From Halorubrum sp. (GTDB taxonomy: Archaea > Halobacteriota > Halobacteria > Halobacteriales > Haloferacaceae): a stretch of DNA of 40,978 nucleotides. The stretch spans positions 1 through 40,978 of the forward strand of contig PWGU01000003.1 of the NCBI GenBank assembly GCA_003554605.1, read 5' to 3'. The notes beneath the pieces are model-generated. The model worked only from the letters and a program-made list of their open reading frames with translations, did no database searches and was not told the DNA's origin. The position numbers were made by a program, and so were the translations under genes. Of this stretch, positions 34,863 to 40,978 are shown piece by piece (position 1 is the stretch's first letter; every line of letters begins with the position of its first letter).

Positions 34863-34988
34863 GGGGGAGGTTCCGCCCGGCGCGGATAAAAGGGCGTCCC
34901 TCCGGGTGCGGGCGATGGGATATAAATGAGGAGCCCGATCGACCGCCGCTTTCGAGGGTTCTATAGGTGTTCCACCCGTGATACGGAT

Positions 34989-36185
34989 ATGCGAAACGTG
35001 GACGCCGCAGGCCTTGGGATCGGCGACGAGTATCCACCCCGGATCATGGGCGTGTTGAACGTCTCCGAGGAGTCGCCGTACGACCCGAGTGTCTACGACG
35101 AGCCCGACGAGGCGGCCGCCTACGTCGACGAGGAGCTGATCGGCGAGGGGGCCGACATCGTCGACGTGGGGCTCGAATCGGCGAACAAGGAGCTCGACGT
35201 GCTCAGCGCCGACGAGGAGTTGGAACGACTCGATGTCGCGGTCGAAACGATGGCGTCCACCTCCGGCGACGCCGTCTGGTCCATCGAGACCCGCTATCAC
35301 GAGGTCGCCGAGGAGGCGCTCGCCCGCGGGTTCGACATGGTCAACGACGTCTGTGGCTTCGCCGACCCCGAAATGGCCCGCGTCTGTGAGGAACACGACG
35401 TCGCCGTCGCGAAGATGGCCTCCCCGCCTGACCTCGAACGTCCCGGCGCGGTCGACGGCGTCGACGCCGTGTACGAGGCGCTCTCGAACGGCGGCTTCAC
35501 CGACAAGACGATCCTCGACCCGGCGTTCGGACGCTGGTCGGAGACGGCGACCCTTGCGGACGACCGCGACACCTTCAGACGGCTCCGGGAGTTCCGCGGC
35601 TACGGGCGGCCGATCCTCGTCTCGATCAACCGGAAGTCGTTCCTCCGGAAACTCGTCGGTCGGGACACCGACGGCGCGCTGCCGGTGTCGCTGGCGGCAA
35701 CCTCGATGGCCGTCGAGCGCGGCGCACACGTGATCCGCACCCACGACGTCGCGGAAACGCGTGATGCGGCGATCATCGGCGCGGAGTTCGCCCGTGACCG
35801 GGTCAGCCGGTCCGGGGAACCCTCCATCGAGGAACTCGACGTGACGACGACCCGGGAGGCCGCACGCCACCTCGACCGACTCGGCGGCGATACGGACGGG
35901 GCGGACCACGCCGTCACCCGCGTCTACGAACTCACCGGATTGAGCGAGGCCGAGGTCGGCGCGTTGCGTGCGGCGGCCGCGGACGGCGGCGCTCGGTTCG
36001 TCGCCGCAGACGGAGCGGAACGACCCTCCGAGGGGGGCATCGAGACCGCCTCCGATGGGGGGACGGGCCACCGCGGGCTCCTCGTCGGGACGCTGGCGGA
36101 GATCGAGACGACGAAATCGGTCGTTTCGGACGTTTCAGTGGGCCTTAGTGACGTTTTGGATGATGTTGGCGACTCCTTCAAGTAA
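34989..36185 (+). CDS. folP: Divergent dihydropteroate synthase
   Basis: TIM-barrel pterin enzyme of 398 residues. DHPS landmarks are recognisable but altered: IMGVLNVSEES for MGILNVTPDS, DVGLESANKE for DIGGESTRPG, NDVCGFADPEM for NDVSGGxxDPEM, ILDPAFGRW for the DPGIGFGK loop, VSINRKSFL for the SRKxF motif, and HVIRTHDV. A C-terminal extension of about 110 residues follows the barrel. ATG 34989 is preferred (TATA-like TCTATAGG about 25 nt upstream); the track's 34926 is an alternative. With mptE next, it points to folate or methanopterin-type synthesis. Confidence 0.82.
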   Translation: MRNVDAAGLGIGDEYPPRIMGVLNVSEESPYDPSVYDEPDEAAAYVDEELIGEGADIVDVGLESANKELDVLSADEELERLDVAVETMASTSGDAVWSIETRYHEVAEEALARGFDMVNDVCGFADPEMARVCEEHDVAVAKMASPPDLERPGAVDGVDAVYEALSNGGFTDKTILDPAFGRWSETATLADDRDTFRRLREFRGYGRPILVSINRKSFLRKLVGRDTDGALPVSLAATSMAVERGAHVIRTHDVAETRDAAIIGAEFARDRVSRSGEPSIEELDVTTTREAARHLDRLGGDTDGADHAVTRVYELTGLSEAEVGALRAAAADGGARFVAADGAERPSEGGIETASDGGTGHRGLLVGTLAEIETTKSVVSDVSVGLSDVLDDVGDSFK

Positions 36186-36344
36186 GAGAAAGTTTATGCC
36201 GCCGTGTGGACAACGATTCAACCGGACGCTGGAGGGGCACGCGGGTAGGGGTACTCTGTGCCACTCCGGCCCATACAATATTTTCACCCGGGAGCGACAG
36301 CGCCCGCACCGGCAGCGACGAGCGAAGAGACGGGTGAAGCGCCG

Positions 36345-37064
36345 ATGAACTTCGAGGAGTTCGAGCCGGTATATGAGGCGATCATCGCCGATTTCGGCTT
36401 CGGACGGGCGGCCGACGAGCGGGCGCGCGACGTCGCCGCCGAGTTCGCGACCCCGTTCGCGTTCGAACGGTTCGCCGACTGGCGTGGGGCGACGGTGGCG
36501 ATCGCGGGGGCCGCACCCACCCTTCCCGACGAACTGGCGCTCGCCCGGTCGGCCGACGTGGTCGTCGCCGCCTCGACCGCGGCCGACGTGCTGATCGATG
36601 CCGGGATCGACGTGGACTGCATGGTCACCGACCTGGATAAAAACCCGGAGACGGGGGCGGAACTGACCGCCCGCGGCGTCCCGGTGGCGGCGCACGCACA
36701 CGGTGACAACATCCCGGCGGTCCGCGAGTGGCTCCCCGAATACGACGCGGAGAGTACCCTCGTGACGACGCAGGTCGCCCCGCGTGGGGCGGTCGAGAAC
36801 GTCGGTGGGTTCACCGACGGCGACCGTGCGGCCTTCCTCGCCGATCACGTCGGGGCTGGGCGGCTCGTCTTTCCCGGCTGGTCGTTCGACGACCCGACCG
36901 TGGATTCGATGAAGGCGAGAAAGCTGACGTGGGCGGCGCGGCTGCTTCGATGGCTCGAACGACGTCGCAATGAGCGGTTTGACGTGCTTGATGGCCGACG
37001 GAAGACGCTGGACGACGGCTCCGCCCTCGCCGTCGGTCGGTGGGGGAAGGGGGCGTCACGGTGA
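36345..37064 (+). CDS. mptE: 6-hydroxymethyl-7,8-dihydropterin pyrophosphokinase MptE
   Basis: Archaeal replacement for FolK (DUF115/MptE family), 239 residues. It activates hydroxymethyl-dihydropterin with ATP for condensation by DHPS. Family motifs are VAIAGAAPTLPDELA, the metal/phosphate site CMVTDLDKNPE, AHAHGDNIPAVREW and NVGGFTDGDRAAFLA. The start is ATG 36345 rather than the track's 36258; a TATA-like ATACAATATT (about 36273-36283) lies upstream. It is located 159 bp after the dihydropteroate synthase gene, matching consecutive pathway steps. Confidence 0.93.
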   Translation: MNFEEFEPVYEAIIADFGFGRAADERARDVAAEFATPFAFERFADWRGATVAIAGAAPTLPDELALARSADVVVAASTAADVLIDAGIDVDCMVTDLDKNPETGAELTARGVPVAAHAHGDNIPAVREWLPEYDAESTLVTTQVAPRGAVENVGGFTDGDRAAFLADHVGAGRLVFPGWSFDDPTVDSMKARKLTWAARLLRWLERRRNERFDVLDGRRKTLDDGSALAVGRWGKGASR

Positions 37065-37102: not shown

Positions 37103-37297
37103 TCAGAGGCCGCTTAAGAGCCCGAACAGGAAGATCACGATCAGCGCCGCCGTCAGGATCAGGAGCACCCCTCGCTTGGTGATCGAGAATCGACCGTGGA
37201 GAGCGGATCGGCCGCTGGGACGTTCCGTCCCGCGATCGACCCGCTGTGCCCGCTGGCCGTTACGACGGCCGGCCATCGTCGCAAGCCGGCCCGTCAT
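37103..37297 (-). CDS. Small single-span membrane protein
   Basis: Protein of 64 residues from ATG 37297 (57 from ATG 37276): a basic, hydrophilic N-terminal half and one C-terminal hydrophobic helix (GVLLILTAALIVIFLFGLL). It overlaps the end of the hidden 56-residue ORF, so it is the last gene of the SipW operon. Function unknown; a membrane subunit of the export module is possible. Confidence 0.6.
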   Translation of the reverse strand: MTGRLATMAGRRNGQRAQRVDRGTERPSGRSALHGRFSITKRGVLLILTAALIVIFLFGLLSGL

Positions 37298-37430
37298 CGT
37301 TCACCCTTTCACCGTCGTCGTCAGCCGTTGATCTCGTTTCTTCGTTGTCATCGTGTTCCTGCCATGCCTCGTTCCATCCGACACCGGGAGCCCAGCGCAC
37401 GGGCGCACCGACAGCCGTTCGGTTGCTCAT
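37260..37430 (-). CDS. Hidden 56-residue acidic ORF in the SipW operon (not in the track)
   Basis: An ATG at 37428-37430 overlaps the stop of the acidic protein gene (ATGA) and opens a 56-codon frame ending at TAA 37260. The peptide has two tryptophan-containing motifs (PVRWAPGVGWNEAWQEHD) and a D/E-rich tail, a composition normal for haloarchaeal proteins, and it overlaps the next small gene. The overlap pattern matches the rest of the operon, which is the main reason to believe it. No family is recognised. Confidence 0.5.
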   Translation of the reverse strand: MSNRTAVGAPVRWAPGVGWNEAWQEHDDNEETRSTADDDGERVNDDGPACDDGRPS

Positions 37431-38344
37431 GCTGCGGTCTCCCCATCGCCGACGTCATCGTCGCCGTCGTCGTCTTCGTCGCGGTCGATGGTCTCGGATC
37501 CGTCGCCGTCCTCGCTACCGTCGCCGTCCTCGCTACCGTCTTCTTCGGCGTCCGCTGCGCCATCGTCGGCATCACCTCCACCGTTCGTCCCGCCTTTATC
37601 GGCCTCCGAATCGTCGCCGGCAGCGTCCGAGCCGCTTGCATCGGCGTCCGACTCGGCCTCCGACCCGGCGTCATCCGCCTCGTCCTCCTGATCGACATCG
37701 GGAGCATCGTCGGGAGCCGCCGTGTCGCCCGACCCTGATCCCTCCACGTCGTCCGTCTGCTTCCCCTCTTCGGTCGCGTTCGCGTCGTCATCGGCGTCCA
37801 TCTCCGGACCCGTCGGCTCCCCGTCGGTGGCGGTGTCGTCGTTCACCGCGGACTCCGACCCGTCGCCATCGCCGGTACCCGGTGCGCCGGTTTCGTCATC
37901 ATCCGACTCGTCGGGGTCGTCGACAGCCGGGCCGTCGGAATCATCGCCGTCCGATCCGTCGGGATCGTCCGCCGGCAGTTCGTCGTCCGGGGATCCGTCG
38001 ATCGCCGTCCCGTTCGGGTTCTCCGCTCCCGGACCCTCGACCGTTTCGTTCCCGATCGGGCGATCCGTTGTGGTCCCGTTCCCCATCGCCGAGTCCGCCG
38101 TTGTCCCGTTGCCGGCGGTGGATCCACCGTCGACATGGCTGCGGTCGCCGTCGATCGAGGGTTCTGCCTCCTCGGGCGGGGACTCCTCGATCGGCGTGAA
38201 GTCGTCCACCGAGGTGAACTCGCCCTCGATCGACGCATCGTCCGTGAACAGCGCCACGGTGGCGTAACCACCGCCGAACGCCGCCGCGAACACGACAACC
38301 GCCGAAAGCGTCACGGCGAAAACCGACGTCGCTATCCGGTTCAT
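37427..38344 (-). CDS. Acidic low-complexity surface protein with N-terminal membrane anchor
   Basis: Protein of 305 residues. One N-terminal hydrophobic helix (SVFAVTLSAVVVFAAAFGGG) is followed by a short ordered-looking part (ASIEGEFTSVDDFTPIEE), then some 250 residues made mostly of D, E, G, S, A and T. Several N-glycosylation sequons (NGT, NET, NAT) are present. It is probably an extracellular extended stalk or cell-wall-proximal protein. It overlaps the signal peptidase (ATGA) upstream and the 56-residue ORF downstream, so it is part of the SipW operon. The ADDGAADAEEDGSEDGDG region contains DNA tandem repeats. Confidence 0.78.
   Translation of the reverse strand: MNRIATSVFAVTLSAVVVFAAAFGGGYATVALFTDDASIEGEFTSVDDFTPIEESPPEEAEPSIDGDRSHVDGGSTAGNGTTADSAMGNGTTTDRPIGNETVEGPGAENPNGTAIDGSPDDELPADDPDGSDGDDSDGPAVDDPDESDDDETGAPGTGDGDGSESAVNDDTATDGEPTGPEMDADDDANATEEGKQTDDVEGSGSGDTAAPDDAPDVDQEDEADDAGSEAESDADASGSDAAGDDSEADKGGTNGGGDADDGAADAEEDGSEDGDGSEDGDGSETIDRDEDDDGDDDVGDGETAA
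37501..37536. repeat. 18-bp tandem repeat in the acidic protein gene
   Basis: CGTCGCCGTCCTCGCTAC occurs twice in tandem and encodes repeats of the acidic hexapeptide GSEDGD. Copy number could vary without frameshift. Confidence 0.7.
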
Positions 38345-39402
38345 CGCGACCCCTCCGGGGACCCGCGGGCGGTGTTCGACGGGAAGTCGTCGTGATCTCC
38401 GTCCTCCATTCCGCCGTCGGGCGTCGGCTCGGGCGATGGGTCGATCGCTCGGTCGAAGCCGTCATCGAGGATCGGTGAATCCGCTTCATCCACCCTCTCA
38501 TCGGCGACCGGCACATCCGCTTCATCGGCCGTCTCATCGACCGCGACTGGCGTGCGGGCACGCCGGCCCGCAACCAACAGCACGGCGATGCCGAGGGTGG
38601 TGAGGATGGCACCGGTGCCGAACGCGATCGTGAGCGCCGTCGGCGTCGTGTAAGCGACGTAGACCGCGTAGGGCGCAAAGACGAGCAGTACGCCGAGACC
38701 GCCCTCAAGCGTCCGGTCCGTGATCATGAACCCACCAGCATCAGCAGCGGGGCTCGCCGGCACGCCGACACCCGTGGTGCCGTCGGCGACTCCCCCGTCG
38801 TGAGCGTTCGACACGTCGTCGCCCGACGGGTCCGTGTCCGCACGCTCGTCGCCCGACGGCTGGGCTTCGGCCGCACCGGCACCGGTCGATGCCGCCGAGC
38901 GCGCACGGTAAAGACTCCAGACCTCCGAAAGCGCGAGCAGCGCGAACGGCAACACGACGAGCACGGCGAAACCGAGCGGCGAGCCGGCGAACTGGATCAC
39001 GTACCCGATGTACGGGATCGTCAGCGCCACCGCGCCGATCACGTTGGCCCCCGGCACGAGCGAGGCGTCGGGTGCGCCGTTGGCATCACCCTGCGTCTCG
39101 AAGGCGACACCGCCGGGGCCATCAACCACGTCGATGACGCGGTGGGTCACGGGGACTTCGTTGTCGCCGCGGACGAACGTGATAACGTCGCCCTCGACGA
39201 TCGCCGCGGGGTCGCGCTCGGCGACGATCACGACATCCCCGGGCGCGATGGCCGGCGTCATGCTCGCGGTGAGCACGACGAAGCTGTGATCCGCGCCGAT
39301 CACCCCCGGTACCGCGTACACCACGAAGGGTGCGACGAGGGCGATCAACAGGACGATCCCGAGGACGTTTGCGATTGTTTTGAGTGAGATTGGTCGGGTC
39401 AT
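38341..39402 (-). CDS. SipW/archaeal-type signal peptidase I
   Basis: S26B signal peptidase, 353 residues. An N-terminal membrane helix precedes the catalytic serine S47 in LTASMTP. The histidine H87 lies in VPVTHRVIDVV, and an aspartate D106 in TQGDANG. The Ser-His-Asp set is that of archaeal, ER and SipW enzymes, not the bacterial Ser-Lys type. Further membrane helices lie at about 125-165 and 230-285, followed by a long acidic C-terminal tail, longer than typical SipW. It sits between its likely substrate and the acidic protein, overlapping both (TAATG and ATGA). ATG 39402 is preferred to the track's 39423 because of this overlap. Confidence 0.9.
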   Translation of the reverse strand: MTRPISLKTIANVLGIVLLIALVAPFVVYAVPGVIGADHSFVVLTASMTPAIAPGDVVIVAERDPAAIVEGDVITFVRGDNEVPVTHRVIDVVDGPGGVAFETQGDANGAPDASLVPGANVIGAVALTIPYIGYVIQFAGSPLGFAVLVVLPFALLALSEVWSLYRARSAASTGAGAAEAQPSGDERADTDPSGDDVSNAHDGGVADGTTGVGVPASPAADAGGFMITDRTLEGGLGVLLVFAPYAVYVAYTTPTALTIAFGTGAILTTLGIAVLLVAGRRARTPVAVDETADEADVPVADERVDEADSPILDDGFDRAIDPSPEPTPDGGMEDGDHDDFPSNTARGSPEGSR

Positions 39403-40922
39403 TACTGCTCCTCCGAGCCGCAAAGCGGCCTTCCGTCGGTGGTCGTTCCGGCGATGATCTCGTAGCGCGGATCCTCCGTCGGGAACGTGTCACCGACCTG
39501 GAGCGGCTCCGAGCAGCTCACGTGAACGTCCGTCGTCCCCGCAGCGTCTTCGATCCGAATGTCCGGGCCGAGCCGATCCGAGCCCTGTCCGGGTCGGTCG
39601 ACGTCGGCCCCGTCGATCGTGAACTCCTCGCCGGTGTCGAGTTCGTCGTCGAAGAGCACGCCGCTCGTGTTCCCCTTGGCCGACTGAACGCTGGTCCGTG
39701 TCGATCCGGGTCCGATGTACGCGAGCGTGAGCGTCCGAAGGCTGACCCGTCCGTCCGCACAGACGACGCAGTCGTCTGTCGGCTCCTCGGGTTCCTCCGG
39801 GCCATCCTCCCCGTTTTCACCGTCGTCGCGAGCGTCACACAGGTCCATCCCGTCGATGGTCGTGGCCGAGACGATCTCGAAGTTGCCGAAGACCATGCCT
39901 GGTTCGAGCGGTTCCGAGCAGCTCGTGTGGATCTTCACTCCCCGAACGCGAGTGGAGCCGCCTGCGTGTCCTGGCGTGCCATTGCCACCGGAAGCGGTCC
40001 CCTCATCATCGACGTAGAGGTTCGGGCCGATCCAGTTGCCGTCCGGTCCGGCGACATCGGTCGATCCGGCGTCGACGAGGAACGTCTCGTCGGGGTCAAC
40101 TGACCCGTCGAACACGACCGTTCCACCTTGTCCAGCGCCACCCGCACCGCCGCCGGTTGCGGCAGCGGTCACGTGTGCCGTCTCCGCCCCGAGGTATCGG
40201 AGCCTGAGCGAGCCGATCTTCACGCCGTTGCCGTCCGCACAGATCACACACGGGTCCGGACACGTCTGGGCGTCAGCGAAGGGGTTCGAGTTCTCCGCAG
40301 TCGCCTCCGAGACGTGTCGGCACTGTTCGGTGTATAATTGCACCCCGAACGGCGTGGACGCGCCGGCGGCCCGCTCGGGCGCATCGGCGGGAAGCGACCA
40401 GTCGAGGACGAGTTCGAGCGGGTCGCCAGCGGGATCGAGGCAGGCGTCGCCATCGAGGTCGTCGAGCCGGATGCCGGAGACGAGCTTTCGACGGATGTCG
40501 GCGACCGATCCCGAGGCGAGCGTCGTCTCCGAGGAGCCGATACCCGCCGAAAGCGTCGCCTGGATGGCGTCGCCGAGCGGGTCGAAGGCGGGCGGGCAGT
40601 CGGTGCCGAGCCAGAGCCGAGCCCGGTTCGTCCGTACCTCGATCCGGAAACGCTCAGTGTCGGATTCGCCGCGGTCGATGCTATCAACCTCGAAGGCGAG
40701 GGTACCATCGGGCGCGGGCGTTCCGTCGATCAGGATCTCGACCTCCCCTGCGCCGATCCCGTTGTCCGCGAACGACGCGGCATCCGTGAAGTACGCCGAG
40801 GTGCCCGCGCCGCTTGCGGCGCCGATTGCGCCGATGCCGCCGAGCCCCGCGAGGAGCCGGCGGCGGCTCAGGCCGAACACAGAGTGTCCGCCCGCGGAGC
40901 CGTCGCGGCCACCCGCGGTCAT
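39402..40922 (-). CDS. SipW-dependent TasA/CalY-like secreted protein with two tandem Cys domains
   Basis: Protein of 506 residues. The N-terminus has a twin-arginine-like SRRRLLAGLGGIGAIG stretch and the TasA/CalY boundary TSAYFTDAASF (about residues 41-51), then a TasA-like domain to about residue 215 (PFGVQLYTEQCRH near its end). Two homologous domains follow: CVICADG...HTSCSEPLEPG (about 225-362) and CVVCADG...HVSCSEPLQVG (about 385-501), joined by an acidic linker GEDGPEEPEEPTDD. The start at 40922 is set by GGAGGG 6 nt upstream and an ATGA overlap. It is probably an extracellular filament or surface protein matured by the adjacent peptidase. Confidence 0.82.
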   Translation of the reverse strand: MTAGGRDGSAGGHSVFGLSRRRLLAGLGGIGAIGAASGAGTSAYFTDAASFADNGIGAGEVEILIDGTPAPDGTLAFEVDSIDRGESDTERFRIEVRTNRARLWLGTDCPPAFDPLGDAIQATLSAGIGSSETTLASGSVADIRRKLVSGIRLDDLDGDACLDPAGDPLELVLDWSLPADAPERAAGASTPFGVQLYTEQCRHVSEATAENSNPFADAQTCPDPCVICADGNGVKIGSLRLRYLGAETAHVTAAATGGGAGGAGQGGTVVFDGSVDPDETFLVDAGSTDVAGPDGNWIGPNLYVDDEGTASGGNGTPGHAGGSTRVRGVKIHTSCSEPLEPGMVFGNFEIVSATTIDGMDLCDARDDGENGEDGPEEPEEPTDDCVVCADGRVSLRTLTLAYIGPGSTRTSVQSAKGNTSGVLFDDELDTGEEFTIDGADVDRPGQGSDRLGPDIRIEDAAGTTDVHVSCSEPLQVGDTFPTEDPRYEIIAGTTTDGRPLCGSEEQ

Positions 40923-40978
40923 GCGGATCCCTCCATACCGCACGGGCTGACGCCGAACGCGACGTCGAAGTCGACGGA
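40919..40978 (-). CDS. 3' end of an upstream gene of the SipW operon (partial)
   Basis: The last 60 bases of the window read open on the minus strand as VDFDVAFGVSPCGMEGSA and then a stop that overlaps the next ATG (ATGA). The tail has the alternating hydrophobic pattern of a beta strand followed by a cysteine, similar in style to PFGVQLYTEQC in the TasA-like neighbour. It may be another SipW-type substrate. Only 19 residues are visible. Confidence 0.5.
   Translation of the reverse strand, partial: SVDFDVAFGVSPCGMEGSA
40929..40934 (-). promoter_or_regulatory. Shine-Dalgarno site deciding the start of the TasA-like gene
   Basis: GGAGGG on the minus strand lies 6 nt before ATG 40922. Most genes in this window appear leaderless, so a strong SD here supports internal translation within an operon and argues against the track start at 40943. 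Confidence 0.6.

Follow-up and report, generated by a model that had tools for sequence, protein, structure and literature searches.

Many salt-loving archaea carry a conserved gene cluster that most likely makes a fibre on the cell surface. Its subunits, related to TasA, a biofilm protein of Bacillus, would leave the cell by the twin-arginine (Tat) route and be trimmed by a signal peptidase dedicated to them. The window analyzed here, 40,978 nucleotides long, comprises an entire contig (G000:C195) from a Halorubrum-like MAG (genome 2.5 Mb, 80% complete). The contig end at 40978 cuts the locus, and the window holds only its downstream (3') half. This is probably half of a dedicated surface-filament locus that combines Tat export, SipW-type cleavage, and donor-strand assembly of TasA-type subunits. 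The original prediction had proposed a dedicated haloarchaeal fibre system from these genes. Its export module of SipW/TasA type stands, well supported because of conserved synteny, co-occurrence, and fold, and makes up only the 3' half of a locus that extends further; fibre formation is the part that we infer. From 40978 to 37103, the minus strand holds six frames, the first a gene end and the other five of 506, 353, 305, 56, and 64 aa, listed here with their features:

40919..40978, minus strand: last 19 codons and stop of a ~260-aa Tat/TasA-fold protein (T264), truncated where the contig stops (C-terminus resembles those of relatives)
39402..40922, minus strand: 506-aa TasA-like plus DUF7467 protein (TIGR04088, PF24269, synteny)
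40782..40871, minus strand: twin-arginine and SipW-cognate signal of this protein, LSRRRLLAGLGGIGAIGAASGAGTSAYFTD, predicted cut near A43/Y44 (sequence; TIGR04088 match at 40740-40838; columns conserved in relatives)
40305..40793, minus strand: its predicted TasA-fold domain, approximate bounds (AlphaFold2 and Foldseek; profile match to TasA-fold subunits, 99.3%)
39849..40262, minus strand: its DUF7467 repeat 1, approximate bounds (PF24269, 39 bits at 39867-40148)
39405..39770, minus strand: its DUF7467 repeat 2, approximate bounds (PF24269, 29.7 bits at 39483-39686)
38341..39402, minus strand: SipW-type (archaeal/ER-type) signal peptidase I, 353 aa, start ATG at 39402 (TIGR02228, invariant residues, SEC11A match)
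37427..38344, minus strand: 305-aa low-complexity acidic protein with an N-terminal SipW-type signal, GGGYATVALFTDD (relatives lie 3' of the peptidase)
37260..37430, minus strand: 56-aa ORF, probably not a gene (weak coding score; uncalled in relatives)
37103..37297, minus strand: 64-aa protein with a single transmembrane segment (counterparts in Halorubrum-type loci)

All six minus-strand frames that had been described from the sequence are present, with the overlaps as reported. The partial gene and the TasA-like gene share an ATGA at 40919-40922, the TasA-like and peptidase genes a TAATG at 39402, the peptidase and acidic protein genes an ATGA at 38341-38344, and the acidic gene and the 56-aa ORF an ATGA at 37427-37430; the 56-aa and 64-aa ORFs overlap by 38 nt. 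Among haloarchaeal relatives, the ~260-aa and DUF7467 genes meet at -4 in 31 of 44 cases, and the DUF7467 and peptidase genes at -4 or -1 in 32 of 46. Because these junctions recur across haloarchaeal relatives and the gene order is conserved, the coupling of the genes goes beyond chance. An MptE-like gene at 36345-37064 converges on the minus-strand genes and marks the end of the locus. The converging plus-strand flank (34926-37064), which carries the MptE-like and dihydropteroate synthase genes, also adjoins the module in several Halorubrum loci.

In relatives, the order runs from a divergent DUF7344 regulator through one to five TasA-fold subunits, a ~260-aa TasA-fold protein, a TasA-fold plus DUF7467 protein, and a SipW-type peptidase to a low-complexity protein that is often acidic; in some loci, including those of many Halorubrum, a 45- to 64-aa membrane protein closes it. 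Among 54 haloarchaeal peptidase loci, a biased sample for synteny since the loci were picked by similarity to the window peptidase in a way that favours the module, the full order is present in 42, the DUF7467/TasA gene lies immediately 5' of the peptidase gene in 46, a same-strand gene follows within 60 nt 3' of the peptidase gene in 47, and a divergent DUF7344 gene is found upstream in 43. Of 148 genomes drawn from the family, 84 have both the peptidase and the TasA-like gene, 5 only the peptidase, 3 only the TasA-like gene, and 56 neither (Fisher p 6e-31, relatedness ignored). A peptidase that usually occurs without these partners had been named in advance as the pattern that speaks against a module; when tested, it did not hold in the 54 loci or in the 148 genomes. 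In the class as a whole, a profile built from the DUF7467/TasA protein finds matches in 153 of 294 genomes, the weaker ones sharing the signal or the TasA domain only. Because the minimal version of the module, in two Haloferax loci (L130 and L134), consists of the Tat-TasA protein, the peptidase, and the acidic protein, these three genes are suggested to form its core. In Natronocalculus amylovorans, two module copies (L078 / L111) face each other, with convergent peptidase genes.

The partial gene at the contig end had been listed as unknown, and it is the C-terminus of the conserved ~260-aa protein: the fragment, SVDFDVAFGVSPCGMEGSA followed by a stop, resembles the T264 C-termini of relatives (for example, ...SVDFDVTFGVDPCG in L091). 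The genome encodes additional TasA-like subunits at the end of another contig, C28 (L064, 637-1941 and 3-506), together with a divergent gene for a DUF7344-type regulator (2327-2860), and the gene order in relatives suggests that C28 and C195 are neighbours. The DUF7344-type protein on C28 appears to have two hydrophobic segments at its end, which would make the regulator membrane-bound. A choice-of-anchor W domain is present in one C28 subunit (1.3e-20) and a vWA domain in a subunit of locus L065 (5633-7228; Pfam, 2.7e-19). The vWA-like metal-site motif occurs in 52 of 151 subunits, about a third, by a regular-expression count with Pfam backing for the L065 proteins only; the window's own genome, in which the locus is incomplete, showed no vWA subunit. 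Several assemblies stop within the locus (the window at 40978, L086, and L096), perhaps at near-identical repeats coding for the signal peptides.

The 506-aa protein matches TIGR04088 at 19.2 bits, just above the cut-off of 19, and PF24269 (DUF7467) over two stretches (2e-17). It had been described as a TasA-like protein with two repeats; structure prediction agrees with the TasA-like fold, and the repeats are those of DUF7467, not of TasA. Its AlphaFold2 model (pLDDT 79.3) matched TasA in Foldseek (8aur, prob 1.00, E 2e-3; 5of2, prob 1.00). Other beta-rich matches of the whole protein (virus capsid, CfaB, and RbmA) were left without interpretation, and an informative structural match was not found for the DUF7467 part. 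For the model of a 292-aa subunit (L084, pLDDT 68.6), TasA was the only match in the PDB at E<0.001 (8aur, 5of1, and 5of2, all prob 1.00), at low TM-scores of 0.34-0.51. Model confidence is moderate, and the N-terminal strand is disordered in the AlphaFold2 models. These predictions also bear on the second result named beforehand as contrary to the original prediction, the absence of a TasA-like fold, which was not what was found.

In comparisons of sequence profiles with the signal regions removed first, the subunits, the ~260-aa protein, and the N-terminal domain of the DUF7467/TasA protein match one another at 98.9-99.3%, and the unrelated controls (the catalytic part of the peptidase and two other families) reach at most 1.1%. 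A profile match to the full-length peptidase (99% over 5-10 columns) was rejected as spurious and put down to the low-complexity tail; it vanished when the catalytic part only was used. TasA ranks first, weakly, for the subunit profile (E 0.04). Peptidase_M73 (camelysin/TasA, Pfam) reaches 25.4 in one subunit against a gathering score of 22.5, 13.8-22.0 in five others, and gives no match in the window protein.

The peptidase scores 108.4 bits against TIGR02228 (archaeal signal peptidase I; cut-off 51.85), and S47, H87, D106, and D112 are invariant in alignment columns of 14 relatives, which bears out its initial description as a Ser-His-Asp signal peptidase. Against NF046067 (Bacillus SipW) it scores 103.5 bits, under the equivalog cut-off of 190, and is SipW-type by context, without the status of a Bacillus SipW equivalog. 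Its nearest named relatives are mostly from Halorubrum, and its C-terminal extension bears additional hydrophobic segments. A SipW-type box is present in 139 of 151 subunits, and conservation across all subunits is among the highest in the strand that follows the SipW site; the ~260-aa protein lacks the motif. Twin arginines are found in the signal regions of 135 of 151 subunits, 41 of 44 T264 proteins, and 39 of 48 DUF7467/TasA proteins. The general Tat-signal model TIGR01409 stays under its cut-off for the proteins scanned, so the use of Tat is read from the motif; the subunits would be Tat substrates, and TatC genes are present in the window's own genome. TIGR04088 gives three signals in this genome, in the window TasA-like protein and the C28 subunits, and the SipW-type signals that it detects are confined to the locus (C195 and C28).

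The signal of the acidic protein is SipW-type by eye and is not one of these three; in a relative of the protein (L066) the signal scores 18.4, just below the same cut-off of 19. Relatives directly 3' of the peptidase also have this signal, a low-complexity tail of D/E/S/T/N/G, and N-x-S/T sequons. The acidic protein had been called anchored, which needs amending: the sole hydrophobic segment in the sequence is N-terminal, and a C-terminal anchor is absent. The 56-aa ORF exists as an overlapping frame, as first described, and is poorly supported as a gene, with a coding score of 0.06 per codon vs 0.20-0.29 for the large genes; in relatives, the acidic gene and the small membrane gene adjoin directly, and no ORF is called between them. 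The 64-aa membrane ORF does have counterparts (...TKRxVL...FG...), which follow the acidic gene in loci of Halorubrum type, among them L084, L085, L088, L089, and L091.

Cleavage, Tat dependence, polymerization, and the role of each subunit, as we infer them, would fit together as follows. TasA-type beta-sandwich subunits with twin-arginine signals would be exported by Tat, probably folded, and the locus-encoded peptidase would cut them after the G-x-G-T-x-A motif. The cut would free an N-terminal strand (YFSDEESFxxNTxxAG), which could complete the sandwich of the next subunit by donor-strand exchange, as in TasA (PMC9674648). The vWA-bearing subunits and the protein with two DUF7467 repeats may mediate adhesion or form the tip; the ~260-aa protein may be a cap or base, and the acidic protein, with its SipW-type signal and low-complexity, sequon-rich tail, a strand-donating or stalk-like terminator. 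A fuller version is tentative: the subunits may pass through Tat already folded and be activated only afterwards, when the dedicated peptidase frees the donor strand, and the filament, decorated with vWA domains, may end in an acidic protein that amounts to hardly more than a donor strand and a disordered, glycosylated tail.

Some subunits are long and have large insertions, which is unusual for a repeating filament subunit and counts against the filament reading. The inserted or appended domains are large and varied, and each locus encodes several different subunits, as might be the case if the products were SipW-processed surface adhesins that do not polymerize, with the TasA fold as a membrane- or S-layer-proximal platform for the vWA, choice-of-anchor W, and DUF7467 domains. 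However, the conserved strand after the SipW site fits a donor strand, and TasA, a homologue of solved structure, assembles into fibres through donor-strand exchange (PMC9674648); we regard non-polymerizing adhesins as unlikely. It is less probable still that the locus encodes a secreted biofilm-matrix set, fibre or not, laid around the cells instead of attached to them. TasA is a matrix protein (PMC9674648), and the tail of the acidic protein, rich in sequons, could be a binding site for ions or matrix, but the conserved small membrane protein and the hydrophobic extension of the peptidase suggest assembly near the membrane. Finally, the peptidase falls in the general archaeal model TIGR02228, yet it is highly improbable that it is a general signal peptidase merely adjoining secreted-protein genes, since its patchy distribution tracks the TasA-like gene, its overlap with neighbour genes is conserved, and a second archaeal-type signal peptidase above the TIGR02228 cut-off is encoded elsewhere in the genome.

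The surface-filament locus proposed here resembles the tapA-sipW-tasA operon of Bacillus subtilis in having a SipW-type peptidase beside TasA-fold substrates. The two systems have the KPGD and N-x-x-Q-G landmarks in common, and the predicted fold matches 8aur and 5of1/5of2. In contrast to the B. subtilis operon, most haloarchaeal substrates have twin-arginine signals, and the locus encodes several subunits in which a vWA domain is inserted or a DUF7467 or choice-of-anchor W domain is appended; it also adds an acidic protein with a SipW-type signal and a regulator, DUF7344. The AbpA bundling pili of Pyrobaculum calidifontis are, as described in the papers that cite them, archaeal donor-strand filaments with a TasA-related structure and to that extent comparable (PMC9674648, PMC9715654); the sequence match of the subunit profile to the "AbpX" chain 9sj2 is weak (E 0.44). 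The threads of Sulfolobus acidocaldarius (Saci_0406) are likewise archaeal fibres of the donor-strand kind, for which a cap subunit has been suggested (PMC9715654); the thread subunits gave no match in sequence or fold searches. TIGR04088, the NCBIfam model for SipW-dependent signal proteins whose curated cut-off is passed by the window and C28 signals, describes the signal alone, without the locus or the twin-arginine character. As for a type IV pilin system, no class III signal, pilus ATPase, or platform protein family is common to the neighbourhoods displayed. In kind, the locus is of the TasA/SipW or AbpA type, and it is a variant by its twin-arginine signals, multi-domain subunits, and acidic partner. 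No description of the haloarchaeal locus or of this combination of features was found in the literature searched, whose coverage leaves out many journals.

The subunits of the known TasA and AbpA fibres leave the cell through Sec. If the proposal is true, a widespread haloarchaeal twin-arginine version would show how a folded-export route can feed donor-strand polymerization. The locus would also offer a defined target for work on haloarchaeal adhesion or biofilm and a context for two annotated unknowns, DUF7467 and DUF7344. A solved "Pilin" structure (PDB 9p0a, chain C) begins with a similar RR...GTGAFSS signal region.
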